Source: a virus
Length of the DNA stretch: 64,000 nucleotides
Strand: one strand, 5' to 3'
IMG/VR virus record: IMGVR_UViG_3300034102_002082
Location: 62,001 to 126,000 of that record
The translations under genes were made by a program, and so were the position numbers. The notes under the pieces are model-generated. The model searched no databases. It was not told the origin of the DNA and saw only the letters and a program-made list of their open reading frames with translations. Positions 1,628 through 63,152 of this stretch are shown piece after piece. Positions within the stretch are counted from its first letter, which is position 1; every line of letters begins with the position of its first letter.

Positions 1628-3229
1628 ATGTCAAATGTAAAATCACTATTAACAGACACATTCAATCCACAAGCTCGTCTTATGGCTGAAACTCGCGGTC
1701 TTCGTCAGAAATGGGAAAAAACTGGTCTTCTAGAAGGAATCACCAGCGAAACCGAACAAGGACACATGTCCATCCTTCTTGAAAATCAGGCTAAACAGCT
1801 GATTGAAGAAGCTACCCGTACCGGAACTTCCGCTAACTCAGAACAATGGGCTGGCGTTGCTCTCCCACTAGTTCGTCGTGTATTCGCCGAAATCGCTGCT
1901 AAGGAATTCGTTTCCGTTCAGCCAATGAATCTACCATCTGGTCTTATTTTCTATTTGGACTTCAAATACGGATCTAATATAGCTGGTAAGCCATCATTCC
2001 AAGACAATTCACTATTCGGTGGAACTAAAGCCAAGAACGGTTCAACCGATTCTGCTGTTAACGGTCTATATGGTCAAGGTCGTTTTGGTTATACCATCAA
2101 TGATCAATCAACAACCGTCGCTCAGACAACCGCAAGCGTAGCCTTCTTCGATGTAAATTTCGTTGATGCTCTATCAGCTTCTGTTTCTGTAGACGGTCTA
2201 CGTAAGGTCACTGTTGACTTATCATCAACCTCATTCGATTCACTAGCTGTTCGTGGCTTCACCGTATCTGGTTCTGGTATTCAAGACTTCTACCCAGCCT
2301 TCACAAAGGCCAATGGTAATCTCGTTACCTTCATCACCTCCGGTTCAACACAAACAGGAAACGTTCTCGTTGGTTACACCGTTCAGCCATCCGATCAAAC
2401 TCGTGGCGACTTCGAAGATCGCGGTACCGCTGTCTCCGACTCAACCACTGGTCTATCTGCTGATATCGGTATCCCAGAAGTTAACTTGGATCTGAAATCA
2501 GAACCAATCGTCGCTAAGACCCGTAAGTTGAAGGCTGTTTGGACACCAGAATTGGCTCAGGACTTGAACGCTTACCACTCAATCGATGCAGAAGCCGAGC
2601 TAACCGCTCTTCTATCTGAATACGTTTCGATGGAAATCGATCTAGAAATCCTAGACATGTTAGTTACCGCTGCACCAACAGTAACCACTGAATATTGGTC
2701 AGCTGCTATCGGAAGAGAATATAACCCAACAACTGGTCAATTCGCCGATACCGCTTCAAATCGTACAGCATATGTAAAGAGCACATGGTTCCAGACTCTT
2801 GGTAACAAGATTCAGAAGGTTTCCAACAAGATTCACCAGTTGACTCTTCGTGGTGGTGCTAACTTCCTAGTATGTTCACCAGATGTCGCTACAATCATCG
2901 AATCAATACCAGGATTCACCACCAACACTGATGGTGACCAGGCTAAATTCGCAATGGGTGTTGCTAAAGTTGGTGCCCTAGCAAATCGTTGGACCGTATA
3001 CAAGAACCCATACATGACCGATAACGTTATGTTGGTAGGTTTCCGTGGAAATAACTTCCTCGAAACCGGCGCAGTTTACGCCCCATATATTCCTCTGATC
3101 CAGACTCCATTGGTCTATGATCCAGTGAACTTTACACCACGCCGTGGCGTAATGACTCGCTATGCCAAGAAGATGGTAAGGCCAGAGTTTTACGGAAAAA
3201 TAATAATTGGAGATTTGAATCAAGTTTAA
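1628..3229 (+). CDS. 23: Major capsid protein, T4 gp23-like
   Basis: A 533-residue protein, close to the 521 of T4 gp23, forming the hexameric capsid lattice. The region around residues 75-115 (LPLVRRVFAEIAAKEFVSVQPMN, then PSGLIFYLDFKYG) follows the conserved start of the mature gp23 family, where T4 has VRRAIPNLIAFDICGVQPMN. The protein ends in a typical region with TPRRGVMTRYAKK near residue 505. The prohead protease of T4 phages cuts after (L/I)xE; LIE at 58-60 lies at the expected place, so residue 61 could be the mature N-terminus (inference). The gene follows the scaffold gene and is closed by a strong terminator. Confidence 0.95.
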   Translation: MSNVKSLLTDTFNPQARLMAETRGLRQKWEKTGLLEGITSETEQGHMSILLENQAKQLIEEATRTGTSANSEQWAGVALPLVRRVFAEIAAKEFVSVQPMNLPSGLIFYLDFKYGSNIAGKPSFQDNSLFGGTKAKNGSTDSAVNGLYGQGRFGYTINDQSTTVAQTTASVAFFDVNFVDALSASVSVDGLRKVTVDLSSTSFDSLAVRGFTVSGSGIQDFYPAFTKANGNLVTFITSGSTQTGNVLVGYTVQPSDQTRGDFEDRGTAVSDSTTGLSADIGIPEVNLDLKSEPIVAKTRKLKAVWTPELAQDLNAYHSIDAEAELTALLSEYVSMEIDLEILDMLVTAAPTVTTEYWSAAIGREYNPTTGQFADTASNRTAYVKSTWFQTLGNKIQKVSNKIHQLTLRGGANFLVCSPDVATIIESIPGFTTNTDGDQAKFAMGVAKVGALANRWTVYKNPYMTDNVMLVGFRGNNFLETGAVYAPYIPLIQTPLVYDPVNFTPRRGVMTRYAKKMVRPEFYGKIIIGDLNQV

Positions 3230-5028: not shown

Positions 5029-5032
5029 TAAT

Positions 5033-24888: not shown

Positions 24889-25308
24889 TTACCACGCACC
24901 AATTTCTCTTAGCGTTTCTTCAAATAAAAACCAATCGGTAGAACCATCCCAGCCAGCCTTGTCATCCAAAACTAAATTGAAATAAAATTTACCATTAAAG
25001 TCACACAATTCGGTATTTGGACACTCTGGATTCTCGTTAATGTAATTAAACTTTACATCTTGTGCTTCCATAATAGTTAGTATATCGCGTATTGGTCCAA
25101 TGTGAGATGATGTCCATAAAATTAGACATATATCAGACCTATTTGACAAATCCCTGAGAACTTCAATCGAATTAGGAAAGAAATTTGCCCCATCATTATT
25201 TAAATTGTACTTTCCTTCAATGATGGTGTCGTGTAAATCTATAGCGATATAGATTTTACTCCACCCCCTCTTAATTTTATCCGCAAAAACTTTTTTAACG
25301 TGTTTCAT
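24889..25308 (-). CDS. HAD-superfamily hydrolase
   Basis: A 139-residue protein with HAD motif I AIDLHDT (22-28, Asp24 and a His-Asp in place of the usual DxD layout), motif II LWTSS (65-69) and motif IV LVLDDKAGW (111-119). It has the size of a minimal HAD phosphatase without a large cap. Its start overlaps the end of the CinA-NMNAT gene by 14 nt, suggesting coupled expression. A nucleotide or NMN-type phosphate could be the substrate by context, but this is inference. Confidence 0.7.
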   Translation of the reverse strand: MKHVKKVFADKIKRGWSKIYIAIDLHDTIIEGKYNLNNDGANFFPNSIEVLRDLSNRSDICLILWTSSHIGPIRDILTIMEAQDVKFNYINENPECPNTELCDFNGKFYFNLVLDDKAGWDGSTDWFLFEETLREIGAW

Positions 25309-26320
25309 TTCTTATTTGGCTAGAGGAAATTTTATTGTCGTAATCAATTAAACTAGAATGGAAAATCAGAATCTTTTCGTGCTTTTTATGTTCTTCATCA
25401 GATACCCATTTACAATGTCTACCAAATACCAAGAATTTCACGCTCCCATTAGAACCAAAGTATTTTTTATCTTCGTCTGATATTCTGTCCCACGTATCTA
25501 CCCCACAAACAAAATTTACATTCGTTAGATTTGGATAGTTTTTTGCTAACCATTCATATTTAGAAACAAATGTTCTGTTATATGATAATATAACGTCTTC
25601 TCCAATCTTATCTATCCTAGAATTTACATCATCGAGATTTATCGCTTTCTTATCGAAATTTTTTATGCTTATTTCGAGATAAGTTTTATTTCCCGTGATT
25701 TCTTCCGACAATTTCTTTATTTCTCTATGGGCATCATGTATGGGGTTAAAGCTACCGGGATATACATTTATAGAACTTTCTACAATAAATCTAGCGGGAA
25801 TATACTTAATCTCATATTCAGTAGGAACCAGAACACAACCACTTACTATAATTAGATATGCTAATTTTATCATTTCCTCCGTGTGTCGCAGTATGTCGTG
25901 TTCTTGTGCATGTCTACGATCACCAGTAAATCCACCAACGTAATTGAATTTTATGGATTTGGATATTTCAAAATTGTAACCAGTAATTACGATATTGGCT
26001 AAATTTACTCGCCCCTCTCGTTCATTATTAGCCGCCAAGGAGCAAGCAATACCAATACCGAAATGTCTATTGCCATTTTTACCAAATTCTTGAGATACTA
26101 CGGATAGCTCTTTAGCCGATTCGTAACTGGCGTATTTACTCCAACTATCGACATGGATATATTTATTAAACATATCCATGTCGTTTATGAAGTTTGCGCC
26201 CAAAATGATCGAACTTCTTCCGGAAACGGAGCAAATATTTGATATCGTAATAGTGCCTCCACCAGCAGTAGATATGTGGAAAGTTGCGCCTATTTCTTTT
26301 AGTTGTTCAATCGTGTGCAT
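25295..26320 (-). CDS. Fusion of a CinA/PncC-like domain with an NMN adenylyltransferase-like domain
   Basis: A 341-residue two-domain protein. Residues 1-160 follow the CinA C-terminal/PncC (NMN deamidase) layout: ISTAGGG (16-22) in place of ESCTGG, SVSGRSSIILG (31-41), then FTGDRRHAQ (131-139) in place of FPGDR. Residues 185-341 are a nucleotidyltransferase with NVYPGSFNPIHDAHRE (185-200, the GSFxPxHxxH motif) and ISSSQIR near the end, as in NMNAT/NadD enzymes. NMNAT joins NMN and ATP to give NAD. The next gene upstream is NAMPT, which makes NMN, so the pair forms a salvage route. The Lys of the PncC YSNxxK motif is not clearly present; deamidase activity is uncertain. Confidence 0.75.
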   Translation of the reverse strand: MHTIEQLKEIGATFHISTAGGGTITISNICSVSGRSSIILGANFINDMDMFNKYIHVDSWSKYASYESAKELSVVSQEFGKNGNRHFGIGIACSLAANNEREGRVNLANIVITGYNFEISKSIKFNYVGGFTGDRRHAQEHDILRHTEEMIKLAYLIIVSGCVLVPTEYEIKYIPARFIVESSINVYPGSFNPIHDAHREIKKLSEEITGNKTYLEISIKNFDKKAINLDDVNSRIDKIGEDVILSYNRTFVSKYEWLAKNYPNLTNVNFVCGVDTWDRISDEDKKYFGSNGSVKFLVFGRHCKWVSDEEHKKHEKILIFHSSLIDYDNKISSSQIRNETR

Positions 26321-26327: not shown

Positions 26328-27731
26328 TTAACCTTCCTGTATATTTTTCTTGATATCAGCTAACGTGTATTCTTTCATGATCTCGCCATTTTCAAATACA
26401 GTTACTAATTCATCACCAATTTCTGGATATTCATGTAGCTGGACAGTTTTGTATTCTCCGTTGATTTTGATCAATTTTATTTTGCCTTTCTTCGAACGCT
26501 TACCGCTATCTGTTATTGGATCTTTAAAGATATCGATCCATTTTCCGTCTACCTTTGCGGCACATGCCTTGAACGCAAATTTACACGTATCGCGATCTAC
26601 ATTTTTAACAAGTAAGCCACCACCAGAACCAACGGTTAAATTATCTGCACTCCAGCCCAATTTAACTATATGTTCATACAGGGAATTAATCGTTGTGGGT
26701 TCCATTCCATCTCCCTGTATTACGCCGACATGTGGATCTAATACCTTATAACCACCAGTGTTGACTGTTCCTCCAAATTTATTCCATAAGATTTCGAGAA
26801 CCTTCGGGATGACATCAAAGAAATCACCCGAATCTGGTCGAATTACTAGCTTACCATTGCGGTTAATAACTTCATCTCGCAATACACCGCCCCAGATGTT
26901 TTCACAGCAGTTATAGATATTATATGTATCACTAACACATGCTATCGGTCCTTCTGGATACTGTTTTAGGAAATTTCTACACGCATCGACCTCATGCTCT
27001 CGACCAAAAGAACATAGAACCGAGTGTTCTGTTGCTGGTATAGAGAATCCACACATACCGGAACTGTAATTCTTTTGTAGCATTCGCACGCCGGATACGG
27101 TATCTGTTCCCATAAATGACAATAAATGAGCAGCAGCACCGATTGCAGAATGTTCTTCGCAGGTTGTTCCACGATAGGAAAAATCGTGACAACGGAAATC
27201 AATAGATTCCGGTGTTCCAGATTGTTTCAAATGATTGACGATATCTTGCTTGATGTTATTAGACTGTGTTGCGATTGTTATGGAATACCAAATCTTCAGT
27301 AACAATGTCTCGATGAAATTAGTTAACCAGTAACATTTTTCGTCTGTATTTTCTACTGTTACCAATACATTTCCGGTCGCGATAATCGCACCTTCCTTTA
27401 CTGCTTTTATACGTAATGGTAGTTTTCCTCCACAATTATCTCGGATATACTCCCATGCTGCTCGGTTGAATACATCCTTTCTTCCAAAGTGTTCTTCCCA
27501 GAATGCCTGCGCCTCATCAATTTTCTCCGTAGTAACTTGTACACCAGAAATTATCTTCAGGTAATACTGAAGCCCAAAGAAGACCGTTTTATTAAATCTT
27601 CCTCCACGGGACTCTAGGTAACTTAGCATTATCTCAAGTTTTGGACAATAAGCATTAATGTGGGATATTTTATAGCTATCCGTACAAAGCAAGAGGTTAA
27701 TATTTTCTTTATTTTTATATGTAGTTGTCAT
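26328..27731 (-). CDS. nadV: Nicotinamide phosphoribosyltransferase (NAMPT/NadV)
   Basis: A 467-residue enzyme that makes NMN from nicotinamide and PRPP. Family marks: LLLCTDSYKISH (13-24), ESRGG (40-44), FFGLQYYL (51-58), FRCHDFSYRGTT (179-190), SIPATEHSVL (230-239, including the catalytic-site His) and VIRPDSGDFFDV (296-307). I use the ATG at 27731 rather than an in-frame GTG at 27743 because the GTG lies in the -10 region of the promoter. It is 7 nt upstream of the CinA-NMNAT gene. Phage NAMPT plus NMNAT has been described as a way to restore NAD after host defences deplete it. Confidence 0.95.
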   Translation of the reverse strand: MTTTYKNKENINLLLCTDSYKISHINAYCPKLEIMLSYLESRGGRFNKTVFFGLQYYLKIISGVQVTTEKIDEAQAFWEEHFGRKDVFNRAAWEYIRDNCGGKLPLRIKAVKEGAIIATGNVLVTVENTDEKCYWLTNFIETLLLKIWYSITIATQSNNIKQDIVNHLKQSGTPESIDFRCHDFSYRGTTCEEHSAIGAAAHLLSFMGTDTVSGVRMLQKNYSSGMCGFSIPATEHSVLCSFGREHEVDACRNFLKQYPEGPIACVSDTYNIYNCCENIWGGVLRDEVINRNGKLVIRPDSGDFFDVIPKVLEILWNKFGGTVNTGGYKVLDPHVGVIQGDGMEPTTINSLYEHIVKLGWSADNLTVGSGGGLLVKNVDRDTCKFAFKACAAKVDGKWIDIFKDPITDSGKRSKKGKIKLIKINGEYKTVQLHEYPEIGDELVTVFENGEIMKEYTLADIKKNIQEG

Positions 27732-27739
27732 GATTTCTA

Positions 27740-27768
27740 TCACTACACCAACTATCGTGATATGTCAA
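27740..27768 (-). promoter_or_regulatory. Promoter of the NAD salvage genes
   Basis: TTGACA (27768-27763), 17 nt, TAGTGA (27745-27740), 8 nt before the ATG. The -35 is perfect and the -10 weak. Confidence 0.45.
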
Positions 27769-39792: not shown

Positions 39793-40860
39793 TTATTTTG
39801 AATAATAATCCAAAATACCAAAACTTTCTCTGAGCCAATTACTTAACAATGGGAACTGATCATGTATTCCATCATAGGTAAACCTCTGTGTTATTTCTAT
39901 AATATTACATTTTCTAATTTCCATTTCTACTCTAGCAGATATTCCATGTTGGTGACATACGGCAAAATCTGGTTCTCTTAGCTGCATTAATTTGTAATTT
40001 CTTTCAACTATTTCCCATTCTGACAGAACATTCTCATATAGTTTGTATTTTCCGGAGGTGGCCTCCGCATGATCTTTCAAATATTCAACATTTAAAGTTT
40101 TCTCTTCCGATATTTGCGGAAAGCATTTTATGACAGTTTTTGCTCCTGCTCCTTTTATACCGTCGATATTGTCCGATGTATCACCATCAAGACACCGGAA
40201 TAGAACGAAGTTATGTGGGTGAATACCGTATTCGGAAACTACTTCGGATACACCATACAACTTCTTTTTTGTTGGACTCCACACACGTACCTGCTTATTT
40301 ACTAATTGTAGAAAATCTTTATCCGCGCTCATTATCGTTACATTATTTTCTGGTTTATTGAAAACTGTAGTAGCCAGATAAGCAATAGTATCGTCCGCTT
40401 CAATGTTATCTACTGAGATTAGTGTTATTGGTAAACAATGCAAGTAAGCAATAAATTTTGCTAATTGTTCCTTCATGCTCTTCTCTTCCATATCGGGGGT
40501 GTTAACCTCGGCATACATCCTATTTACACGAATACGGTTCTTTCTTCCGGATTTATAATCTGGATAGATTTGTTTTCTTCTCTTTGATCCACCAGCACCA
40601 TCAGCGACAACTATACATCTAGTTGGTTTTAATTCTCGTATAGCATATGCCAACGACTTTAAGCTACCAACTAGACCACCCGATAGGTTTCCGTTTTCGT
40701 TTGTGTTTGGAAATACTGAATAACATCTAATAAAAAGATTGAATAAATCGACTATCAAAACATCGGAGTTCAATGTTTTTTGTGGTCTATTCATTATTTC
40801 ATTTTTATCTAAGTTCTCGAACAATGAAAATAATCTTTTTTTGTTAATTGGTTCGTTCAT
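39793..40860 (-). CDS. rnh: FEN/RNase H-type 5' nuclease
   Basis: A 355-residue 5'-3' exonuclease of the T4 RNase H/FEN family, which removes RNA primers and flaps. Acidic metal sites are visible: LIVDLFNLFIRC (near 35-46), VADGAGGSKRRKQIYPDYK (84-102), SVDNIEADDTIAYLA (149-163), MSADKDFLQLV (176-186) and the helix-hairpin-helix GDTSDNIDGIKGAGAKT (near 212-228). The ATG at 40860 overlaps the stop of the terminase-like gene (ATGA), so a longer upstream start is unlikely. Confidence 0.88.
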   Translation of the reverse strand: MNEPINKKRLFSLFENLDKNEIMNRPQKTLNSDVLIVDLFNLFIRCYSVFPNTNENGNLSGGLVGSLKSLAYAIRELKPTRCIVVADGAGGSKRRKQIYPDYKSGRKNRIRVNRMYAEVNTPDMEEKSMKEQLAKFIAYLHCLPITLISVDNIEADDTIAYLATTVFNKPENNVTIMSADKDFLQLVNKQVRVWSPTKKKLYGVSEVVSEYGIHPHNFVLFRCLDGDTSDNIDGIKGAGAKTVIKCFPQISEEKTLNVEYLKDHAEATSGKYKLYENVLSEWEIVERNYKLMQLREPDFAVCHQHGISARVEMEIRKCNIIEITQRFTYDGIHDQFPLLSNWLRESFGILDYYSK

Positions 40861-41693
40861 ATTAATTCTCTCTCGACTGCATCTACTCCGATTTCTTTCA
40901 CTTTGTTTATTAACCATTTTATATCTCTACCAGGTACAGAATCCCACTTCACCTTCAATATATACCAATTCAATATATTTGACCAACTATAAATTCCAGA
41001 AGTACTACCCACAATAAATTGTGATCCTTTAGTATATAGACAAGGATATATGCATTCGATGATACTACTATTGATAAATTCACATTCGTCTATGAAAATA
41101 GTAGAAAAGCTTTTTCCACGGACACTAGAACCTTTAGACGAAACCGATATAAAATCTATAGAGTTTCCACTGTTAGTGGATATAAACGATCTATTTATCG
41201 TTCTAAATATATTTTTATCTACCAATGAACAATTGTCCAACATTTCATATATAATTTTTCTTATGTTTTCATTGGAATTAAGATTATGAGACATCACGAC
41301 AATTGATTGCTTTTCTGTGAATAGAAACTTCCAAACCAAGTATGCACATTGGATCGTAGTAAATCCTACCTGTCTAGGTTTTTTTACGAAAATTCTGCTT
41401 TCTTTTTGTGTGTTGTTGATGAAATCCTTTTGCCAATCATATAAAATAAAAGGAATACGACCACTTGATGGAGTGTTTATCGTTATATATTTTTCGATAA
41501 AATATATAGGATCTTCTTTACACATATCAATTTCGATTTCTTCCGGTGATGGCTTAACTAATGTTAAACCATATTGCGCCATTGATCTTATGCATCCAAT
41601 TTTTTCTATTAATGATTGATCGAATCTTTTAAGATCGAAGCTATTATCATATATTGACTGTAATACTTCTCGTATTTTTTCTTTATTTTCCAT
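40857..41693 (-). CDS. Terminase-like ATPase, short, with altered Walker A
   Basis: A 278-residue protein resembling the ATPase half of T4 gp17. It has the adenine-binding-type segment PFILYDWQKDFI (81-92), IFVKKPRQVGFTTIQ (101-115) where gp17 has a Walker A of the type RQxGKTT, a hydrophobic strand IVVMSHN, and Walker B STIFIDECEFI (197-207). The Lys of Walker A is Phe here (codon 41363-41361, TTT on the coding strand). The nuclease half is absent. It could be a degenerate paralogue with a new role in recombination or packaging control, since it lies between recA and the FEN nuclease. I chose the ATG at 41693, just past the recA stop. Confidence 0.65.
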   Translation of the reverse strand: MENKEKIREVLQSIYDNSFDLKRFDQSLIEKIGCIRSMAQYGLTLVKPSPEEIEIDMCKEDPIYFIEKYITINTPSSGRIPFILYDWQKDFINNTQKESRIFVKKPRQVGFTTIQCAYLVWKFLFTEKQSIVVMSHNLNSNENIRKIIYEMLDNCSLVDKNIFRTINRSFISTNSGNSIDFISVSSKGSSVRGKSFSTIFIDECEFINSSIIECIYPCLYTKGSQFIVGSTSGIYSWSNILNWYILKVKWDSVPGRDIKWLINKVKEIGVDAVERELI

Positions 41694-41697
41694 GGTA

Positions 41698-42948
41698 TTA
41701 ATCTTCGAAAGTTTCTGAAAATTCTGCATCGTCATTGCCATCTTGACTATCATATACAAATATTTTCTTTTTGCATATTTTCATATATAGGAAATCTTTT
41801 ATTTCTGGTCGATCTTGAAGAAGAGTTAAGAAGTTTTTTCTTTCAAATTGCACAACTTCCTTTACTGTTACTAGATCACCTTCTTTTGTGTCGAAAGTCT
41901 CATCAGTATAATCGAACTGGAAATTTTTCTCCTTCTTCAATGCTGCTCTTTCCAATTCTAATTGGACTTTTGTTTTCTTCTTTCCCGTGCTATCAGTTGT
42001 TTCAACTTTTGCGGTTTTGAAAACTTTATATTCTTGTAATCTTTCCAGCCAATTTCCATAATTGTCGATACCACTTCTGAAATATATATCAAATTCTGCT
42101 TTTCTGAATGGTGGCCCCATTCTATTTTTGACTACCTTAGCAATTGTTTTCATACCTATTGCTTCATTGTCTTTGTTTGTTATTTGTCCACTCTTTTGCA
42201 ATCTAATTCTTACTGATGCGTGAAATGGTAATGCCTTCCCACCAGGAGTTATCCACTTATCACCAAGACCAACGAAACCGATCTTTTCTCTCAACTGATT
42301 GGTACAAATAAATAGAATTCTTTGTGTTCCTATCAATCCTGTTATTTTTCTGAATGCCTTGGATAGCAAGTAAGCTTTTGCTGTACCGAATCCCTCTTTC
42401 GCGTATGACTGTTCTTGCTCATCCTTTGTAGTCATTGCGGCAATCGAATCTATTACTACTGTTACCAATTGATTCCCATTTCCTTCACGTAGCTTTGCTA
42501 TTAATTTTTCAATAGAATTAAAAATGTCTTCGACTGTATTAAGAGAAACAACTAACAATTCACTTACGTCAACTCCTATAGCAGTTAGGTATTCTTTAGA
42601 TAATGCGGTTTCTGTATCAAATAATATTGCAGTTCCTCCCTTTCTTTGTGTATCAGCTAAAGCGTGAGCAACTAGCAATGATTTTCCGCTGGCTTCTTCT
42701 CCGGAAATTTCTATAATTCTTCCTACGGGGAGACCACCATTTGGTCTATTGCTTATAGCTAAATCTAATTCGGAGTTACCTGTGCTAATCCAGTCAGTTA
42801 CATTGGATGGATCATCTTCCTTATCTAAGAAAAATGCCACCTTCCCTTGGTCAGTGACTGCCTTATTTATAACATCTACCAGTCCTGCTAGTAGATCAGA
42901 TTTTGACGTTCCGGTTTCTGCCTTAGTTGATTTTGTTGATTTTGCCAT
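41698..42948 (-). CDS. uvsX: RecA/UvsX-type recombinase
   Basis: A 416-residue strand-exchange protein. GRIIEISGEEASGKSLLVAH includes Walker A GEEASGKS (83-90); VVIDSIAAM is Walker B; LFICTNQLREKIG (near 211-223) and GGKALPFHASVRIRL follow the bacterial RecA pattern closely. The C-terminal 100 residues are charged and extended. It pairs with the gp32-like gene upstream, as in T4-type recombination-dependent replication. I chose the ATG at 42948 (MAKSTKSTK). Confidence 0.93.
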   Translation of the reverse strand: MAKSTKSTKAETGTSKSDLLAGLVDVINKAVTDQGKVAFFLDKEDDPSNVTDWISTGNSELDLAISNRPNGGLPVGRIIEISGEEASGKSLLVAHALADTQRKGGTAILFDTETALSKEYLTAIGVDVSELLVVSLNTVEDIFNSIEKLIAKLREGNGNQLVTVVIDSIAAMTTKDEQEQSYAKEGFGTAKAYLLSKAFRKITGLIGTQRILFICTNQLREKIGFVGLGDKWITPGGKALPFHASVRIRLQKSGQITNKDNEAIGMKTIAKVVKNRMGPPFRKAEFDIYFRSGIDNYGNWLERLQEYKVFKTAKVETTDSTGKKKTKVQLELERAALKKEKNFQFDYTDETFDTKEGDLVTVKEVVQFERKNFLTLLQDRPEIKDFLYMKICKKKIFVYDSQDGNDDAEFSETFED

Positions 42949-47868: not shown

Positions 47869-48921
47869 ATGAGAAAATTAGCATCAATTCAAAAAGTTTT
47901 AGAAATTAATCCAATAAAAGGAGCGGATAAAATCGAAGTCGCGAAAATATTGGGCTGGGAAGTTGTCATAAAAAAAGGTGAATTCACTGTCGGTGATTAT
48001 GTGATCTACCTAGAAATCGATTCCTTGCTACCTAGAATGCCTTGGAATCAATTTTTATTTAAGGATGACACGAAAGATACCTACCGACTAAAAACTGTTA
48101 AATTACGTGCGCAGATAAGCCAAGGATTGCTATTGCCTATTTCTGTTTTAAGTCAATATGAAAATCCACCGAGTATCGAAGAAGGCTTGGAAGTAACTGA
48201 ATTGTTAAAAATAACTAAATATGAACCATCTATTCCCGCTGAGTTACATGGGTTGATTAAAGGTCAGTTTCCGTCCAGAATTCCGAAAACTGACGAACCG
48301 AGAATCCAAAATTTTCCTAATATCGTAACTGAGTGTTATGGTGTCGAGATGGTTGGAACATCTAAACTCGATGGAACTTCTGTAACTTTCTACTTGATTG
48401 ATGGTGTTTTTGGTGTTTGTTCTAGAAACTTGGACTTAAAACCAACGGAAGGAAATACATACTGGAAAATGGCATTGAAGTATGATGTCGAAAATAAAAT
48501 GAGACAAGTTCAAGAAACGATTGTGTCGAGTACCAGTGAATTTGCTAATTTCTCTTGTGCTGGTGAAATATTCGGAGAAGGAATCCAAGGAAACCCAATG
48601 GGTATAAAAGGCCAAGAATTAAATCTTTTCAGTTTGTATGATATCGATAACGCAAAATACAAGTCACATGAAGTATTAAAACATTTCAGTGCATTAACCG
48701 GAATACCAATGGTTCCAGTTGTAATTGAAACTATTTTTGGTGATACTTTTACTGCGAAATATTTACTAGAATTTGCCGATAAATTAAACTATCCAAATGG
48801 TAGTCCAATGGAAGGAATTGTTTGGCGACCAAAGAACAAGGAAATGTATTCTGAAATACTTAAAGGAAGATTGAGCTTCAAAACAATATCAAATTCTTTC
48901 TTATTGAAAAATGGAAATTAA
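47869..48921 (+). CDS. RNA ligase, DraRnl/Rnl5-type
   Basis: A 350-residue ligase. Residues 1-110 form an OB-like N-terminal domain (RKLASIQKVLEINPIKGADK), the nucleotidyltransferase starts near 140, and the catalytic motif I is GTSKLDGTS (163-171, Lys166). Later motifs are AGEIFGEGIQGN (near 226-237) and MEGIVWRP (near 321-328), with RLSFKTIS as motif V. This matches the DRB0094-type RNA ligases. It likely reseals broken RNA during infection. Its stop abuts that of a leftward homing endonuclease. Confidence 0.88.
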   Translation: MRKLASIQKVLEINPIKGADKIEVAKILGWEVVIKKGEFTVGDYVIYLEIDSLLPRMPWNQFLFKDDTKDTYRLKTVKLRAQISQGLLLPISVLSQYENPPSIEEGLEVTELLKITKYEPSIPAELHGLIKGQFPSRIPKTDEPRIQNFPNIVTECYGVEMVGTSKLDGTSVTFYLIDGVFGVCSRNLDLKPTEGNTYWKMALKYDVENKMRQVQETIVSSTSEFANFSCAGEIFGEGIQGNPMGIKGQELNLFSLYDIDNAKYKSHEVLKHFSALTGIPMVPVVIETIFGDTFTAKYLLEFADKLNYPNGSPMEGIVWRPKNKEMYSEILKGRLSFKTISNSFLLKNGN

Positions 48922-49751
48922 ATAAAACAAAATCCGATACCGGCTTTTGTTAATGTTTTTGTATCTTCATAATTTATGAATAATCGAGAACATTGATTTC
49001 TCGTAAATCCTCTATTCAGATTATGTAAAAATTCATTAGTAAGACCATATTTCTTTATAAATACAGAATGAATAGGATATAGATTTCCCAAATGATCTCT
49101 TAAAATTTTTTTATTTCTTTGTCTACTCAAAGAAAACGCGGCTTTATGTGCGTCACTTTTAGGTTTATTTTTTAATGCTGCTGATACATTTTTACCATGT
49201 GATGCTACTTTCTTTATACCTTTTAAGTTTACTGTACACTTCCTCCCCCGCATTTTGTCAGAATGACTCTTCTTTCTTTCCGGAGTCCAATATTCAGATT
49301 TCAATCTAATAGATTGTTCTAATTTCCTCGCGTCGGTCCATTGAGCCTTATGAATGGACTTCATTTTATCTCGAAATCCTTCCTTGTTCCACAGTAATAT
49401 GCTAGATTTAGAGGCGTGTTTCTTTTGTTCTTCAGTGTATACATATCCCTTACCTCCTTTTGGTTTTCCATCTAATCCATTTTCCACTATTAAATTTGCC
49501 CAATCATCTGATTTTTCAATGTTGTTTTCTTTGGAGAAATTGATAGCAAATTTTTCACATTCTGTTTTATCATAAAAAGTTCCTTCTATTTTCGTATCAA
49601 CAAAATTTCCATGTTTCTTTAGATGTCTTTTCCAGAATAAACCAGAACCTTTATATTTAAATGGATCTCTACAAGTTTTTCCGAAGTATTTTAATCCAGT
49701 AATCTTATGAGTTTTTACATATAAATAAATAGGTTCTTGTTCGTATTCCAT
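48918..49751 (-). CDS. GIY-YIG-type homing endonuclease after the RNA ligase gene
   Basis: A 277-residue protein beginning IYLYVKTHKITGLKYFGKT, a phage GIY-YIG variant with YFG, then YKGSGLFWKRHLKKHG. The middle has NUMOD-like basic repeats (ERKKSHSDKMRGRKC) and the C-terminus a DNA-binding helix (FIKKYGLTNEFLHNLNRG). It converges on the RNA ligase gene with 4 nt of overlap, and probably moved the original terminator of that gene to beyond its own start. Confidence 0.82.
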   Translation of the reverse strand: MEYEQEPIYLYVKTHKITGLKYFGKTCRDPFKYKGSGLFWKRHLKKHGNFVDTKIEGTFYDKTECEKFAINFSKENNIEKSDDWANLIVENGLDGKPKGGKGYVYTEEQKKHASKSSILLWNKEGFRDKMKSIHKAQWTDARKLEQSIRLKSEYWTPERKKSHSDKMRGRKCTVNLKGIKKVASHGKNVSAALKNKPKSDAHKAAFSLSRQRNKKILRDHLGNLYPIHSVFIKKYGLTNEFLHNLNRGFTRNQCSRLFINYEDTKTLTKAGIGFCFI

Positions 49752-49920: not shown

Positions 49921-49982
49921 AACACTGGCAAGTGCTTTCTCTTTCGAGTTATGATGAGAAACCACTTTACCAGTGTTTTTTG
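49921..49982 (+). other. Long interrupted hairpin with T run, terminator or small structured RNA
   Basis: Three stem segments stack: AACACTGG with CCAGTGTT, AAGTG with CACTT and TTTCTC with GAGAAA, giving 19 pairs with small bulges and a 14-nt loop (49942-49955). A TTTTT run follows. It is longer than normal terminators in this window. It lies in a gene-free stretch (49752-50042). Confidence 0.65.
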
Positions 49983-50033
49983 TTTACTTTTACCCACTTT
50001 TTTCCTTGCTTTTTTATAGAATATGGCATAACG

Positions 50034-50041
50034 TATAAATA
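50034..50041 (+). promoter_or_regulatory. TATAAATA late-promoter-like element next to a start codon
   Basis: TATAAATA, the T4 late promoter sequence, ends 1 nt before the ATG at 50043. Such close placement would give an almost leaderless message if used. Confidence 0.35.
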
Positions 50042-50042
50042 T

Positions 50043-50621
50043 ATGAAATTTAAAGATTTTTACGTAGATGATAGGCTCGAAGAGATAAAATTGATGGTAG
50101 AGTCTCCTATGATAATGAATAGATATGACGTTGACCAATTACAGAGTATGGGGGAGAATTTTAGATTCACACAAGCAGTGACAGAGAAAATAAAATCCCC
50201 TACCGATGAATTTAACGGATACAATATTTACAGTTATATTGCAAAAGAACAAACACATGACCTATTCGTAAAAGATAAAATAACTTATGCATTTTTTTCA
50301 TACGTCATTAAAGATGATTCAATAATAGGAAAAAAAGTCTGGCAGGAGCATTTACATCACGGTTTTTGTAGAAAAATATTAAAAGAATTTTACTTACCAA
50401 AATATAACATAATTTCAGATGAAATATTTTCAAAAATGGGATATGGATATTACAAAAAACTTGTGTCCGAACTATTGCGAGCCGGACATAAGATAACCTG
50501 TTTTGATTACAAAACAAATGAATTATTGGAGGATATTACCGAAGTTGAACAAATAGATAAGTATTTTGGAGATTCATCAAATAAGTTTTTCGATTACAGA
50601 TTTAAGATATTTAAAAAATGA
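50043..50621 (+). CDS. Hypothetical protein, possibly acetyltransferase-like
   Basis: A 192-residue protein. The stretch EFYLPKYNIISDEIFSKMGY followed by GYYKKLVSELLRAGHKI recalls phage GNAT-like proteins (helix after a conserved Ser-Asp, then G-x-x-x-W/Y-K-x-L), but acetyl-CoA binding marks are not clear. I use the ATG at 50043 rather than one at 49932, because the upstream part is inside a hairpin and looks non-coding. Overlaps the next gene by ATGA. Confidence 0.55.
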   Translation: MKFKDFYVDDRLEEIKLMVESPMIMNRYDVDQLQSMGENFRFTQAVTEKIKSPTDEFNGYNIYSYIAKEQTHDLFVKDKITYAFFSYVIKDDSIIGKKVWQEHLHHGFCRKILKEFYLPKYNIISDEIFSKMGYGYYKKLVSELLRAGHKITCFDYKTNELLEDITEVEQIDKYFGDSSNKFFDYRFKIFKK

Positions 50622-50792: not shown

Positions 50793-51446
50793 ATGCAAAT
50801 AAGATACAATTTTAAACAAAAACCAACAAGCAAGGTATGGTTCGTTTCCGACTTACACGCTGGACACGAGAAGGATTTTATTTTAAATCCTCGTGGGTAT
50901 AAGACCGCTAAAGAAGCATATGAGGATATCTTTAACCAATGGAATGCCGTTGTAGCTCCAGAAGACATCGTTTTCAATTTAGGTGACTTAGTTGTTGGTG
51001 CCGGAACTAATAGCGAACAGGTTGCAAATGAAATGATACATGGTTTAAATGGTAACTGGTTCTTCATTTTCGGAAATCATAATGCCGGTATAAAACAAAT
51101 ATATCGCAAGGAATTAAAAGAACAGTTTAATTTAGATTCCGATTATCGAGAATTATTCCCTCTTTGGACAAAAGATGAGAAAATAACTTTCATTGGTGAT
51201 TACGCTGAAATTATAGTTGACGGTCAGTTTATTATATTGGGCCATTATCCAATTGAAAGCTGGAACGAGATGGGTAAAAAATCGATCCATATTCATGGTC
51301 ACTGTCACCGAAATCTACCTATTAATAAAAATCTACGTAGAATTGACGTAGGTTGGGATTATAAGAAAAGACCAGTTTCGTTCGATGAAATAAAAATCGA
51401 AATGGATAAGGTTGAATTTAAACCAATAGATCATCACGGTAAATAA
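50793..51446 (+). CDS. Calcineurin-like metallophosphoesterase
   Basis: A 217-residue enzyme with the usual metal motifs in order: VSDLHAGH (18-25), LGDLVVG (63-69), FGNHNAG (92-98), GHYPIE (near 149) and HGHCHRN (near 168). It hydrolyses a phosphate ester, often in nucleic acids or nucleotides. It precedes a histidine phosphatase, an ATP-grasp protein and CoaD-CoaE in one rightward run. Confidence 0.88.
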   Translation: MQIRYNFKQKPTSKVWFVSDLHAGHEKDFILNPRGYKTAKEAYEDIFNQWNAVVAPEDIVFNLGDLVVGAGTNSEQVANEMIHGLNGNWFFIFGNHNAGIKQIYRKELKEQFNLDSDYRELFPLWTKDEKITFIGDYAEIIVDGQFIILGHYPIESWNEMGKKSIHIHGHCHRNLPINKNLRRIDVGWDYKKRPVSFDEIKIEMDKVEFKPIDHHGK

Positions 51447-51450
51447 TATT

Positions 51451-52116
51451 ATGAGTAAGCCCAAAAATATATTTTTAGTCAGACATGGATTGTCAATTGG
51501 GAATGTGGACAGAAACGCATACAAGATCAAACCAGATTGGAAAATAGAATTAGCTGAGAAGGGACACGTACAAGCAAAAGAAGCTGGAATAAAATTAGCA
51601 ACATTGATAAATACCAATGTTGCATTTTATGTATCTCCTTATAGGAGAACAAAGCAAACATTGAAGGAGATACTTGAGAGCTTCGATTCAACCTTGATAT
51701 ACTCTATAAAAGAAGACCCTAGATTGCGTGAGCAAGAATATGGTACCGGTAGATCAACAAAGAGTGAACTTGATTTTGATGTGGTAGAAAAAGAAAGGAT
51801 AGATTGTGGACCTTTTTTCTATCGATTGGCTGGAGGAGAGAGTCCATGTGACGTTTACGATAGAATGACAACGTTCCTAGATACATTACATAGAGATTTC
51901 CAGAAACCAGATTTCCCAGAAAATGTTGTTATAGTTACACACGGAATGGCTATGAGAGTATTTCTTATGCGTTGGTTTCATTGGGACGTTGATTATTTTC
52001 ATAGAATACGAAATCCAGAAAATTGTGGAATTGCACATATGCAGTTACAGGGAAATGGTAAATTTTTACTAAAAACCGAAATGCAACTGAGAGAAGTTAA
52101 TGAAACGGAAATGTAA
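51451..52116 (+). CDS. Histidine phosphatase (phosphoglycerate mutase-like)
   Basis: A 221-residue protein with the catalytic FLVRHGLSIGN (8-18), SPYRRTKQT (62-70), a Glu in RLREQEYG (near 91-98) and the second His in VIVTHGMAMR (near 158-167). It belongs to the histidine phosphatase superfamily; substrate not known. It follows the metallophosphoesterase by 4 nt. Confidence 0.88.
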   Translation: MSKPKNIFLVRHGLSIGNVDRNAYKIKPDWKIELAEKGHVQAKEAGIKLATLINTNVAFYVSPYRRTKQTLKEILESFDSTLIYSIKEDPRLREQEYGTGRSTKSELDFDVVEKERIDCGPFFYRLAGGESPCDVYDRMTTFLDTLHRDFQKPDFPENVVIVTHGMAMRVFLMRWFHWDVDYFHRIRNPENCGIAHMQLQGNGKFLLKTEMQLREVNETEM

Positions 52117-52987
52117 TAAGTTATTAATTCTACACAATAGGTTAACTGAATATTGTTTAGACATAGAAAAAGTAGCCAAATCCCATGGATGGGATACTTG
52201 GCGTGGAGTTGCTTCTGATGATTATATTAAAGTTTGTGAAGGATACGAAACCGTAAGATATTACGGTAACTATATCCACGCAGAATGGTTGATAAATGAT
52301 TGTTCGTTTAAATTTGATTACCGACCAATCACATTATTACATTACAATACAAATGAAAATATTACTGGTAGAAAAGTTCATCTATGTGATTCTGACCAAA
52401 TAGAACATACATTCACGGTAGATATTTTTGTTAAGTGCGCATTCCAAAAAAAGTTCGATCCGAGAATATTTAAAGATGGTGAAAGTCTACCACAATTCGA
52501 CGAAGTAACCTCTTTATATTTACAAGAACCTATATATGATATCGATGAAGAGATTAGATGTTTCGTTGATAATTGCGAAGTAAAGACCGCTAGTTACTAC
52601 GTAATATCACATGGACATTGGAATAAAGTACAATATAAAAACATAGATGATAATATTCCACAATCCATAATAGATAAAACTAAGGAAGTTTGTATTTCTC
52701 TTGGTATTAATAATGGAATATGTTTAGATTTTTATAGAAGAAAAGGACAAGATACTTGGTTTTTACTAGAAGCTAACATACCTGCATTTTGTGGATTATA
52801 TGATTGCAATGTGGAAAAAGTATTTGATGTAATAATTAATAGTCAGATAGATACGGTAGCAAACATACCATATTCTCAATTTATTAACCAACCAACATCG
52901 GAATCTGTTAGTTGGTTGAGTAAGAGAACAGGAATAACAGATATTGACACTTTAAAAAAATTAGGTAGAATACTTAACAAAAAATGA
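52100..52987 (+). CDS. ATP-grasp protein, R2K-type
   Basis: A 295-residue protein. ATP-grasp marks of the R2K class are seen in the second half: DEEIRCFVDNCEVKTASYYV (near 157-176) and GICLDFYRRKGQDTWFLLEA followed by N (near 214-235), where Asp, Glu and Asn would bind Mg-ATP. R2K ATP-grasp enzymes are found in phages and may ligate peptide or amino groups. The start overlaps the previous gene by 17 nt. Substrate unknown. Confidence 0.7.
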   Translation: MKRKCNKLLILHNRLTEYCLDIEKVAKSHGWDTWRGVASDDYIKVCEGYETVRYYGNYIHAEWLINDCSFKFDYRPITLLHYNTNENITGRKVHLCDSDQIEHTFTVDIFVKCAFQKKFDPRIFKDGESLPQFDEVTSLYLQEPIYDIDEEIRCFVDNCEVKTASYYVISHGHWNKVQYKNIDDNIPQSIIDKTKEVCISLGINNGICLDFYRRKGQDTWFLLEANIPAFCGLYDCNVEKVFDVIINSQIDTVANIPYSQFINQPTSESVSWLSKRTGITDIDTLKKLGRILNKK

Positions 52988-53299: not shown

Positions 53300-54415
53300 A
53301 TGAAAACCGCTTTATTCACAGGATCTTTTGATCCGGTAACCAAAGGACATCTGGATCTAATAAAAAGATCATCCGAAATCTTCCATAAAGTAATTGTTGG
53401 TGTCGGAATAAACCCAACGAAGAAATATACATTTTCAATAGAACAGAGAGTAAATTTCATAAAACACAACACGCTTATGTTGAAGAACGTAGAAGTGTTA
53501 GCAATGGAAGACGGAAAGCTTTCTGCTGATATGGCGTATGAACACCAAGCCGTTATAATAAAAGGAGTAAGGATAAACGCAGATTTTGATTATGAACGAT
53601 TAATGGATGATATCAATAAGCTACATTGTCGCGGAGTCGATACTATGATATTCCCTTGCAGACCAGAACTAAGCCATGTTAGTTCAAGCGCAACCAAAGA
53701 GGTATGTAAGCTAAATGGGAACACGGAAGATTTTGTTACGTTGGGTGTAAAGGACGCACTAGAACAGTCAAATGGACAATTTAGAATCGGGTTGACTGGA
53801 TCTATAGCTTCTGGAAAATCTACGTTAATGCGTGAGATCGAGAAAAAATTAGGAGATAAAGTATTTAATGTTGATTTGGATATAATAGCACATGATATAT
53901 TATTTCTAAGAATAGAACCGATTTATTTAAAAATAAGGAGCGATCTACAGACAAAATTTGGGATATCCGAATGGAATAAGAGAAGTCTTGCGGAGGTAAT
54001 ATTCACAGACCCAACCAAAAGAGAATATCTAAACTCGTCAATCAGACAGTCTATATTTACGAGAATACGGTCTGAATTACATAATAAGAAGGGACTAATA
54101 GTATTCAATAGCGCACTTTTAGTTGAGGCTGATATGTTGGATTTTGTTAATAATAATGTGGTTTTCACAAGAACTCCATACGAAGTTCAGCTAGAGAGAC
54201 TATTAAAACGAGGCCACGATAGAAATCAATGTGTACAAAGATTAAATTCGCAGTTGTCATACGATTCTAAAATGGAAAGAGCATTGGATAAAATAGATAA
54301 CGATAGATATGGAAAAGTTATAACAATAGACACATATGAAACACCAGAATCCGAATTGTGTGTTGTTGTAGATTTAATATTAAAGTTTTTTAATTACGAT
54401 ATAAAACATGAGTAA
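53300..54415 (+). CDS. Fused phosphopantetheine adenylyltransferase and dephospho-CoA kinase (CoaD-CoaE)
   Basis: A 371-residue bifunctional enzyme for the last two steps of coenzyme A synthesis. Residues 1-157 match CoaD: LFTGSFDPVTKGHLDLIKRS (5-24), INPTKKYTFSIEQR (37-50) and HVSSSATKEVCKLNGN (126-141). Residues 161-371 match CoaE: GLTGSIASGKST (164-175), a VDLDIIAHDI acidic motif, RLLKRGHDRNQCVQRLNSQL and DNDRYG. The order CoaD then CoaE is that of the eukaryotic CoA synthase, while bacteria usually keep them separate. It has its own promoter and overlaps the next gene by ATGA. Confidence 0.85.
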   Translation: MKTALFTGSFDPVTKGHLDLIKRSSEIFHKVIVGVGINPTKKYTFSIEQRVNFIKHNTLMLKNVEVLAMEDGKLSADMAYEHQAVIIKGVRINADFDYERLMDDINKLHCRGVDTMIFPCRPELSHVSSSATKEVCKLNGNTEDFVTLGVKDALEQSNGQFRIGLTGSIASGKSTLMREIEKKLGDKVFNVDLDIIAHDILFLRIEPIYLKIRSDLQTKFGISEWNKRSLAEVIFTDPTKREYLNSSIRQSIFTRIRSELHNKKGLIVFNSALLVEADMLDFVNNNVVFTRTPYEVQLERLLKRGHDRNQCVQRLNSQLSYDSKMERALDKIDNDRYGKVITIDTYETPESELCVVVDLILKFFNYDIKHE

Positions 54416-55145: not shown

Positions 55146-56294
55146 ATGAATAAATTATCTACGTTATTTTCCAGAACAGCTACCGGAGCTATCCAACAAT
55201 GGGATATCGAAGTCACAGATAACAGATTTAGAGTTATTTGTGGGCAAGTAGGTGGTCAATTAGTTACTAGCGAATGGAGCCAATGTGAAGGAAAGAACAT
55301 CGGAAAGAAGAATGAGACTTCACCGGAAGGACAGGCATTCCTAGAAGCAGAATCAAAATGGACAAAGAAGGCTCGGATGGGATATACCGAGGATATAAGT
55401 AAAGTAGATAACTGCATGGCTTATATCGAGCCAATGACAGCGAAAAAACTTGTAGATCGACTCAAGAAAATCGACTTCAAGAAAGGTGTTCTTGTTCAGA
55501 ACAAATATAATGGCCACAGGTGTGTTGCAAGAATGGAGGGAGGAAAAATCATCCTTAGAACCAGAACAGGAAAATTATATTATTGTGTTCCGCACATTGC
55601 TAAAGACTTGGAAGAGTTCTTTACCAAATATCCAGAATCTATACTTGATGGAGAGCTATTCAATAATGACCTGAGAACAAAATTGAATGAGATTAGTAGC
55701 TTACTCCGTAAAGGTGAGGATGTTACTGCGGAAGATCTTGAAAAGAGTGAACGATTGATAAAATTCTACGTTTATGATGGATATAATTTTGACGAAACTC
55801 TGGATCAAGACTCTGATTATATTCTTAGAAAAACATTTATTGATACAAATATTTCGGAGTTATGTGATTTCTGCGAAATTGTAAAAACTGATATTGCTTA
55901 TTCTATGGTAGAAGTCGATAAAATTTATAATGAATATTTAGCTGATGATCAAGAAGGTGCTATTATTCGACTCCCAAATTCACCATACGAAAATTCCCGT
56001 TCTGCTAATCTCCTGAAATACAAGCCTGTTGATGATAGTGAATGTGAAATATTGAGCTTACATGAAGGTACTGGAAATTGGGCAGGAACAGCAAAAACTG
56101 CAACGGTGAAATGGAACGATAAAATTTTCGACGCGACATTTAAGGGATCTTTGGAACTAGGAAGAGAGCGATTAAAGAATCCAACACCATGGATAGGAGC
56201 CACTGTAACTTTTCTGTATAATGGATTGACAGGACTTTCCGTACCAAATTACGCAAGAATCGATCCAGAGAATTGCTTCACTGGAGACAAGTGA
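55146..56294 (+). CDS. ATP-dependent DNA ligase with WGR-like N-terminus
   Basis: A 382-residue ligase. The N-terminal 85 residues include WDIEVTDNRFRVICGQVGG and EWSQCEGKNIGKKN, a WGR-like module. Motif I is QNKYNGHR (118-125, Lys120), where Asp of KxDG is Asn. Motif III is SILDGELF (near 160-167), IV EGAIIR and V NLLKYKP. A C-terminal OB-type domain follows (TATVKWNDKIFDATFKG). This seals nicks in replication. It lies in the accessory block rather than near the polymerase genes. Confidence 0.9.
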   Translation: MNKLSTLFSRTATGAIQQWDIEVTDNRFRVICGQVGGQLVTSEWSQCEGKNIGKKNETSPEGQAFLEAESKWTKKARMGYTEDISKVDNCMAYIEPMTAKKLVDRLKKIDFKKGVLVQNKYNGHRCVARMEGGKIILRTRTGKLYYCVPHIAKDLEEFFTKYPESILDGELFNNDLRTKLNEISSLLRKGEDVTAEDLEKSERLIKFYVYDGYNFDETLDQDSDYILRKTFIDTNISELCDFCEIVKTDIAYSMVEVDKIYNEYLADDQEGAIIRLPNSPYENSRSANLLKYKPVDDSECEILSLHEGTGNWAGTAKTATVKWNDKIFDATFKGSLELGRERLKNPTPWIGATVTFLYNGLTGLSVPNYARIDPENCFTGDK

Positions 56295-60371: not shown

Positions 60372-60866
60372 ATGAAAACTTTGACATACAAAACTGGAAA
60401 TGTCCTCACCGACGAAAATATACAAGTCGTTATTCACCAGACAAATACTATGGGTGTGATGGGTAGCGGAATCGCCCTATCCGTGAAGAATATGTACCCA
60501 CAAGCGTATGAAGCTTATAAATTAACCGAGAAAGAGAATAAGCTAAAACTCGGTGAAATTAGCTATGCTGGTATGCAACGAAATGGAAAACCATTCGTAA
60601 TTATAAATGTAAATGGACAAGGAAATTTTGGTGTTGGTGTTAGACAGACTAACTACGAAGCACTTTTTGTTGGGTTAGAACGCGCAAGAAAGATTTGCGA
60701 TTTGGCACAAATGGAGCCAAAACCAACGGTAGGTTTACCATTTAACATAGGGTGTGCTCGTGGTGGCGGACAATGGGAAATAGTTGAACGTTTGATAGAA
60801 GTAGCCTTTGATGGATACTCTGGCGATGTAGTTATTGTAGACTATGACGGTGTAGAAAATAAGTAA
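60372..60866 (+). CDS. Macro-domain protein
   Basis: A 164-residue single macro domain. Features: VVIHQTNTMGVMGSGIAL (19-36), the Asn and glycine-rich loop binding ADP-ribose, ANGQGNFGVGVRQTNY-like loop (near 76-90, here VNGQGNFGVG), and GLPFNIGCARGGGQW (near 122-136). Macro domains bind or hydrolyse ADP-ribose and ADP-ribose 1''-phosphate. Some phage macro proteins act on ADP-ribosylated targets. It follows the NadR-like gene by 4 nt. Confidence 0.88.
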   Translation: MKTLTYKTGNVLTDENIQVVIHQTNTMGVMGSGIALSVKNMYPQAYEAYKLTEKENKLKLGEISYAGMQRNGKPFVIINVNGQGNFGVGVRQTNYEALFVGLERARKICDLAQMEPKPTVGLPFNIGCARGGGQWEIVERLIEVAFDGYSGDVVIVDYDGVENK

Positions 60867-62561: not shown

Positions 62562-63152
62562 ATGGAAACAGACAACAATACTTTTAAGATGTACCATGGT
62601 GGAAAGCGGTGGTCATTCATACCAACAGAAATTCAACCATCCGCAAAGAATAGATATGAAGCTGGTGTTGGGATTTATTTTACAAATTATTACGATACTG
62701 CTAGTCGGTATTCTAAAGGTGGCAGAGTTATCCATCTCGTAGATATAGATAAAAATTTCACAAAAATAGACGATGTTAGTGTAGAAGTAAGCGAATTTGT
62801 GAAGGATATAAAAAATATCTCCGGTCTAAAACTTAGAGAGAAGATAACACAAGATATTATAAATTACGCAACTAAGACAAACAAAACATCGGTTCCTCTT
62901 AGTGTGTTGAATAATTTAGTAGTAAACTACGAAGTTGGTTCTGGACAAGTTGGTGTAAAAATAGCAAATTACTTCGCATCAAAAGGTGCGGACGCAAACA
63001 TAGAACAACAAGGGGCAGGAGAATATTGGTTAGTAGTATTTAACCCAAAAATAATCAAGAAGGTTAAGATAGTAGATCAGAGTAAAGTATCTGAACCAGA
63101 TTACTTAATTTCGCTAGATTTCTTAAAGAACAAGTACCGTGGAAATAAATAA
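62562..63152 (+). CDS. ADP-ribosyltransferase-like protein
   Basis: A 196-residue protein with FKMYHGGKRW (8-17) and GVGIYFTNYYDTASRYSKGG (35-54), the H-Y signature of the PARP/ART fold (His of YHG, Tyr of IYFT), and GEYWLVVFNPKII (near 153-165), which could carry the third catalytic position. ARTs use NAD to modify proteins or nucleic acids. There is no signal peptide. Alternative readings as a general ART-like fold without activity are possible. It overlaps the methyltransferase start by 14 nt. Confidence 0.6.
   Translation: METDNNTFKMYHGGKRWSFIPTEIQPSAKNRYEAGVGIYFTNYYDTASRYSKGGRVIHLVDIDKNFTKIDDVSVEVSEFVKDIKNISGLKLREKITQDIINYATKTNKTSVPLSVLNNLVVNYEVGSGQVGVKIANYFASKGADANIEQQGAGEYWLVVFNPKIIKKVKIVDQSKVSEPDYLISLDFLKNKYRGNK

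Follow-up and report, generated by a model that had tools for sequence, protein, structure and literature searches.

Bacterial phosphopantetheine adenylyltransferase (PPAT, CoaD; TIGR01510) and dephospho-CoA kinase (DPCK, CoaE; TIGR00152) are separate enzymes, whereas eukaryotic CoA synthase (COASY) carries PPAT and then DPCK in one chain. COASY also has a long N-terminal region. A parallel among phages is NAD+ reconstitution (NARP1), in which nicotinamide phosphoribosyltransferase (NAMPT) and NMN adenylyltransferase provide phage-borne salvage of a central cofactor. We are not aware of a defence that CoA synthesis would counter. Phage coaD and coaE are already in print. In the available sections of a study of snow viruses, coaD and coaE are among the abundant viral genes, NAMPT is abundant in the same samples and the purpose is given as not entirely known (PMC11097641); those of a report on phage X1 name coaE, NAMPT and nadM (PMC13384950). 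Here the enzymes appear on phage contigs alongside NAD+ genes but are named as separate genes, with no fusion, reverse order or link to an HD hydrolase described. Within the open-licence literature, including the accessible part of PMC7824862, we found no printed report of a CoaD-CoaE fusion in phages or in Patescibacteria, or of the HD link.

The locus described here joins the two bacterial-type enzymes in one chain and has a NAMPT gene in the same record. Like NARP1, the fusion would represent phage-borne salvage of a central cofactor, in this case CoA rather than NAD+.

A CoaD-CoaE fusion in a tailed-phage record

The window, the whole 64,000-nucleotide stretch analyzed, comprises bases 62001-126000 of a 129,856-base IMG/VR virus record. 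The source record is a phage. Hallmark genes are found both in the window, which encodes a T4-type major head protein that marks the record as a tailed phage and also a DNA polymerase (PHROGs profile search), and in the remainder of the record, which encodes the terminase large subunit and portal protein. The features of the window referred to in the text are as follows.

1628..3229, + strand: T4-type major head protein (phrog_138, E 1e-73)
25295..26320, - strand: NMN/NaMN adenylyltransferase-like ORF adjoining NAMPT (TIGR00482, 32 bits, below cut-off; PF01467, 24 bits, cut-off 21)
26328..27743, - strand: NAMPT, NAD+ salvage, 25 kb from the fusion (phrog_448, E 9e-156; NF006629, 564 bits)
50793..51446, + strand: metallophosphoesterase, upstream of the fusion in the same gene run (PF00149, E 2e-8; phrog_547, E 5e-41)
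51451..52116, + strand: histidine phosphatase (PF00300, E 5e-31)
52100..52987, + strand: R2K-type ATP-grasp ligase (PF18299, E 3e-11)
53300..54415, + strand: CoaD-CoaE fusion, predicted bifunctional PPAT-DPCK, 371 aa, uninterrupted from an ATG start
53300..53767, + strand: CoaD half of the fusion, residues 1-156 (TIGR01510, 142 bits)
53786..54304, + strand: CoaE half of the fusion, residues 163-335 (TIGR00152, 82.5 bits; PF01121, E 3e-23)
55146..56294, + strand: ATP-dependent DNA ligase, downstream of the fusion (PF01068, E 2.5e-20; phrog_114)

The fusion lies in a + strand run that starts with the metallophosphoesterase, histidine phosphatase and R2K ATP-grasp genes, continues through a small ORF to the fusion and then through further small ORFs to the DNA ligase. 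Neither CoaBC (PF04127) nor acyl carrier (PF00550) domains were matched anywhere in the phage record.

A preliminary description of this DNA had proposed that the ORF at 53300-54415 is a phage-encoded PPAT-DPCK fusion resembling eukaryotic CoA synthase. The ORF was confirmed, the family, fold and residues of both enzymes are recognized in it, and the motifs quoted in that description (GSFDPVTKGH, HVSSSATKEV, GLTGSIASGKST and VDLDIIAHD) are all present in the translation. Pfam assigns residues 5-133 to CTP_transf_like (E 1.9e-14) and residues 163-335 to CoaE (E 3e-23). Both halves pass the cut-offs of the curated NCBIfam equivalogs, with 142.4 bits against 103.3 for pantetheine-phosphate adenylyltransferase (TIGR01510) and 82.5 bits against 65.55 for dephospho-CoA kinase (TIGR00152), which puts the assignment far beyond chance. 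The CoaE half is thus only modestly above its cut-off and is divergent. Nicotinate/nicotinamide adenylyltransferase models score at most 34 bits on the fusion, and the concern that the first domain might be another nucleotidyltransferase is thereby answered.

Residues of both active sites are conserved. Across 47 aligned rows (17 phage fusions with CoaD first, hereafter D-E; 6 Patescibacteria fusions; 5 phage fusions of the reverse order, E-D; 10 gene pairs; 9 bacteria), S9, H17, K41, R91, S128 and S129 of CoaD, which cover the GH motif, Lys41, Arg91 and the SS motif, are invariant in all 47. The same is true of G167, G172, K173 and D194 of CoaE (P-loop and catalytic Asp). His198 of the CoaE half occupies a position where Arg stands in many bacterial rows. 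An AlphaFold2 model of the fusion, made with a 12-row fusion alignment, has two domains and is confident (pLDDT 89.3, pTM 0.85). The top Foldseek matches of the CoaD half in the PDB are CoaD structures, and VIA-align superposes this half on 3nba_A with Z 22.4 and rmsd 1.4 over 154 aligned residues. The DPCK portion of the mouse CoA synthase structure 2f6r superposes on residues 151-369 (Z 19.1, rmsd 3.1 over 197 residues), and the Rickettsia DPCK 8dv0 on residues 159-368 (Z 18.8, rmsd 2.9 over 187 residues). By cut-off, residues and fold, the phage domains therefore belong to the same families as the separate bacterial enzymes.

The other PPAT model, PRK00777, which we take to represent the archaeal/eukaryotic type, scores 18 bits (cut-off 104), compared with 142 bits for TIGR01510. 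Thus, the first half is a bacterial CoaD. The resemblance to eukaryotic CoA synthase pointed out in the preliminary description lies in the domain order only, and kinship beyond that arrangement is not supported. The phage protein shares with COASY the sequence of PPAT and DPCK in one chain and a DPCK fold that matches the mouse structure, but differs in its bacterial-type PPAT half and in having no long N-terminal region. In our reading, eukaryotic CoA synthase and the phage fusion arose separately.

Some further observations concern the record as a whole. Many proteins across it share an N-terminal tag like MKYKDFYxxLLxE (for example at 2849-3928, 3941-4849, 4851-5660 and 7800-8525 of locus L006, 637-1179 of L005 and 49932-50621 of the window), which we take to recall the T4 capsid-targeting sequence; the CoaE of phage LR756501 begins MIITFESFINKP, which has a similar shape. 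At 60372-60866 and 62562-63152 of the window there are a DarG-like macro domain (68.7 bits) and a low-scoring ART-PolyVal match (23 bits, under its cut-off), and handling of ADP-ribosylation near the cofactor genes is possible on this basis. A 300-aa ORF at 40857-41759 (- strand) has a partial match to terminase large subunit (E 6e-19, at 103001-103675 of the record) and is distinct from the complete terminase gene, which lies elsewhere. The window ORFs at 3281-4063, 27752-28723, 31783-32532 and 48918-49751, scattered among core genes, have starts that by eye resemble GIY-YIG domains and look like homing endonucleases.

Relatives in viruses and bacteria, and descent of the fusions

The CoaD half matched 64 of 50,697 named phage records and the CoaE half matched 16; several of these look bacterial. 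Clear phage carriers include Caulobacter, Brevundimonas and Lak phages and Myxococcus phage Mx1, in which coaD adjoins a cytidylyltransferase gene and NAMPT is close. The 735-kb LR756501 has coaD and coaE as separate genes with a 4-base overlap, and in the 462-kb LR756500 CoaD is joined to a further domain, with CoaE encoded elsewhere. We rejected four records as phage loci. In MW495066 (Microcystis phage MaAM05, L009, 274-kb), rplA, rplK, nusG, secE and a tRNA adjoin coaD, as in a bacterial chromosome, and in MT835471, MT835486 and MT837764 we read uvrC-, rsmD-, fadB- and polA-like ORFs beside the match. MT837764 (L021) was retained as an outgroup in search alignment A2.

Three scans of IMG/VR yielded at least 193 CoaD/CoaE loci, or at least 117 distinct loci once shared sequences were merged. 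The latter comprise 16 D-E fusions (the window excluded), 5 E-D fusions, 4 adjacent gene pairs in the order D>E and 6 in the order E>D, 7 loci with both genes nearby, 54 with CoaD alone and 25 with CoaE alone, the CoaD-alone contigs being taken as viral from IMG/VR and possibly including bacterial ones. The scans favoured fusions, one having been made with a fusion alignment (best 80 of 96 matches) and another retaining the best 80 of 261, so the 21 fusions among 117 loci do not represent a natural frequency. Terminase phrog_2 was found in only 16 of the 31 fusion and pair records, and the phage status of some contigs is therefore unproven. Our CoaD model also matched 2 of 80 random viral loci (L442 and L454), and CoaD may therefore be commoner in viral contigs than the named records suggest. 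Profile searches for phage homologues, proposed in the preliminary description, thus returned at least 16 further distinct viral D-E fusions, and the two-domain ORF is not a one-off. The rarity of these genes on phages, also claimed there, holds for the CoaD half in deposited phage records, some of which are bacterial contigs, but understates their presence in large uncultivated phages.

The two genes are generally apart in bacteria. CoaE is absent near all 78 bacterial CoaD loci examined (flanks up to 6 kb), and CoaD is absent near all 21 bacterial CoaE loci that exceed the Pfam cut-off (flanks of ~1.5 kb). The earlier statement that bacteria keep these enzymes apart is correct for these loci but fails for some Patescibacteria. 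Among the matches listed from a profile search of genome contigs, at least two Patescibacteria assemblies contain a full-length D-E fusion, and of 379 Patescibacteria genomes 6 have a D-E fusion (accessions include LCLP01000001 and JAAYYE010000010), 1 more has a truncated piece and 4 have adjacent genes. With the D-E profile at 1e-58 there were no matches in 395 Bacteroidota or 398 Pseudomonadota genomes, a search that reverse-order and split arrangements would escape. The Patescibacteria fusions have the same domain order as those of the phages but differ in being chromosomal where the context was read, as at L215, whose neighbours look chromosomal. At 3 of 7 loci (L216, L301 and L302) the fusion follows a gene for ADP-forming acetyl-CoA synthetase. 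At L216 (919-7131), genes for pyruvate formate-lyase, its activase and this synthetase are directly upstream, as read by eye from the translations. Since the synthetase belongs to a CoA-using pathway, we count it in favour of a role in CoA synthesis.

We concatenated the CoaD and CoaE domains and built a maximum-likelihood tree (61 rows, 333 columns, no eukaryotic rows), from which the truncated L303 and one of the five D>E pairs, L181, were excluded. In it, 16 phage D-E fusions, including that of the window, and the 6 Patescibacteria fusions form a single clade of 22 rows with support 100/100, which among the rows tested contains only phages and Patescibacteria. The window fusion is outermost, the other 21 rows being grouped at 97/82. 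The six Patescibacteria fusions are a clade (100/99) that groups with four phages (97/89) and is nested among phages. Their origin from Patescibacteria gene pairs, as one clade, is rejected by the AU test (p 4e-8). Monophyly of the phage D-E fusions alone is not rejected (p 0.229), and for this reason we claim no direction of transfer between phages and Patescibacteria. For the D-E fusion at locus L184, which may have a separate origin, placement inside the D-E clade is likewise not rejected (p 0.184).

The AU test does reject a single clade of D-E and E-D fusions (p 0.0004) and a single clade of all five E-D fusions (p 0.001). The E-D fusions are intermixed with adjacent E>D gene pairs in the tree, so that a coupled gene pair followed by fusion would be a simple route. 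Given that both orders occur, that linkage is repeated and that one origin is rejected, selection appears to favour the pair, rather than a single accident having been inherited.

NAD+ salvage genes and an HD hydrolase as companions

Besides NAMPT, the window encodes an adjoining ORF (25295..26320) that is recognizable as adenylyltransferase-like in its C-terminal half only. NAMPT-family genes (PF04095) are present in 14 of 23 fusion records, namely all 12 records of 100 kb or more and 2 of the 11 smaller ones. They also occur in 8 of 9 pair records and 16 of 22 CoaD-alone records. DNA-polymerase relatives provided too few control contigs over 100 kb (2), so controls were drawn with a 14-base pattern, which gave at least 7 over 100 kb. 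Two of the nine control contigs have a NAMPT-family match, one of just 22 bits, and the locus of one control contig (L442) itself matched our CoaD model. The difference between fusion records and controls (Fisher p 0.0003) rests on few control contigs (n = 9), and their median length is 124 kb as opposed to 243 kb for the fusion records. Within the range 100-235 kb, NAMPT is found in 9 of 10 fusion and pair records and in 2 of 9 controls (p 0.005). A CoaBC match is present in 2 of the 23 fusion records and absent from the other 21.

The second companion is an HD hydrolase (phrog_19425, 'phosphohydrolase'). It adjoins 8 of the 16 distinct viral D-E fusions, among the matches listed, and occurs in 18 of the at least 117 distinct CoaD/CoaE loci. 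It is fused to CoaD in LR756500 (L013, 4001-5161), L101/L102 and L199-L201, one group of which has a shortened CoaD. The gene was found in none of 80 random viral loci (697 kb) and none of 78 bacterial CoaD loci, and it is absent from the phage of the window.

The model of the HD protein (pLDDT 92) resembles class I cyclic-nucleotide phosphodiesterases in Foldseek (E 0.008, TM ~0.6) and aligns with a class I phosphodiesterase in VIA-align with Z 14.7 and rmsd 3.8 over 187 of 191 residues. For a helical protein, a Z of ~14 is no more than suggestive of a class I phosphodiesterase-like fold. Pfam gave one insignificant match, with no HD or ACP_PD match up to E 0.1, and NCBIfam and PDB sequence searches returned no family. 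Identity with AcpH was rejected (hhalign probability 0.5% to the single E. coli AcpH sequence). Relatives of the HD protein are present in 31 of 299 Pseudomonadota genomes. At 25 such loci neither coaD nor coaE is nearby and no common neighbour was seen; thus, the bacterial context yields no function.

Function of the fusion in infection

We consider it probable that the gene encodes a bifunctional CoA synthase of bacterial-type parts, which would make CoA from host 4'-phosphopantetheine and keep it available in infection. The N-terminal CoaD half would form dephospho-CoA by adenylylating 4'-phosphopantetheine, and CoaE, at the C terminus, would phosphorylate dephospho-CoA to CoA. As the phage supplies the last two steps only, the substrate would have to come from the host, where it would be either synthesized or released from CoA or carrier proteins. 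The fusion would then be a maintenance or salvage step that holds CoA during infection, in phages that also have NAD+ salvage genes. The restriction to the last two steps, the repeated linkage and the retention of NAD+ salvage fit a need to hold or rebuild cofactors in infection. A demand for CoA, acyl carrier or acetyl-CoA, suggested in the preliminary description, is an inference. Against this reading, host CoaD and CoaE may already be ample in infected cells.

A narrower version of the CoA-maintenance reading is that CoA is destroyed by a host defence, or by breakdown that the phage induces, and is rebuilt by CoaD-CoaE, with the HD hydrolase in many phages, in parallel to NAD+ reconstitution. 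The strong co-occurrence with NAMPT-family genes and the carriage of the last two CoA steps alone speak for this version, as does phage NAD+ reconstitution itself, an established counter-defence according to the part of the source available (PMC12774641). We nevertheless think it rather unlikely: PADLOC has no CoaD/CoaE model beyond weak P-loop matches, our literature search found no anti-phage defence that depletes CoA, and the NAMPT co-occurrence could mirror large metabolic gene sets. An extended form is offered as a doubtful conjecture. In it, CoaD and CoaE, adjacent or joined in either order and often accompanied by an HD phosphodiesterase of their own, would make up a reconstitution module of large phages that restores CoA after an undescribed defence has broken it down, as for NAD+, and the phage fusion would later have been acquired by Patescibacteria for use in fermentation. 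It is improbable, in our judgement, that one or both halves are inactive or use another substrate in a different nucleotidyl transfer and kinase reaction. The divergence of the CoaE half and its weak matches to other P-loop kinases would allow it, but the curated equivalog cut-offs are passed, the catalytic residues are intact in every aligned fusion and the two activities are consecutive steps linked repeatedly in both orders.

Two readings give the HD hydrolase the leading part, and its absence from the window's phage weighs on each. In one, it frees 4'-phosphopantetheine from host holo-ACP and CoaD-CoaE converts this to CoA, so that lipid synthesis stops and CoA rises. Its position beside half of the viral D-E fusions among the matches listed, its fusion to CoaD in some phages, its absence from the bacterial CoaD and random viral loci and its class I phosphodiesterase-like model agree with such a role, and two classes of phosphopantetheinyl hydrolase are described, the HD enzyme AcpH and the metallophosphoesterase PptH. 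However, the protein has no sequence kinship to E. coli AcpH, and the available part of the same source has the released phosphopantetheine excreted and PptH apparently without a role in CoA salvage (PMC8557913). We regard this reading as quite improbable. In the other, the hydrolase strips CoA of its 3' phosphate and CoaE puts this back, setting the balance of CoA and dephospho-CoA, for example for RNA started with dephospho-CoA. MESH1 is an HD enzyme. This SpoT homologue is a CoA 3'-phosphatase in the part of the source consulted (PMC13221220), and the HD gene is linked to CoaD/CoaE, but the proposal is speculative, half of the D-E fusions have no adjoining HD gene, and we regard it as very improbable. 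A horizontal gift of CoA synthase from a eukaryote, or a bacterial contig taken for a phage, is scarcely credible. The domain order and the fold of the DPCK half, close to that of the mouse enzyme, would suit the former, but the PPAT half is bacterial-type and the fusion clade has only phages and Patescibacteria among the rows tested, in a tree with no eukaryotic row; the phage hallmark genes in the same record argue against the latter.

With respect to CoA synthesis by the fusion, its relatives in large phages and in a handful of bacteria with tiny genomes point to repeated linkage of the two enzymes by phages, perhaps to keep or rebuild the CoA of the infected cell. If so, CoA would be the second central cofactor, after NAD+, with phage-borne salvage enzymes, and CoA or phosphopantetheine would be lost or contested during infection. 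A single small CoA synthase of bacterial type would allow both steps to be assayed at once, and there would be a linked family of HD hydrolases with a substrate that may be guessed from its partners. The same two enzymes would have been fused more than once in prokaryotic genomes, as happened in eukaryotes.
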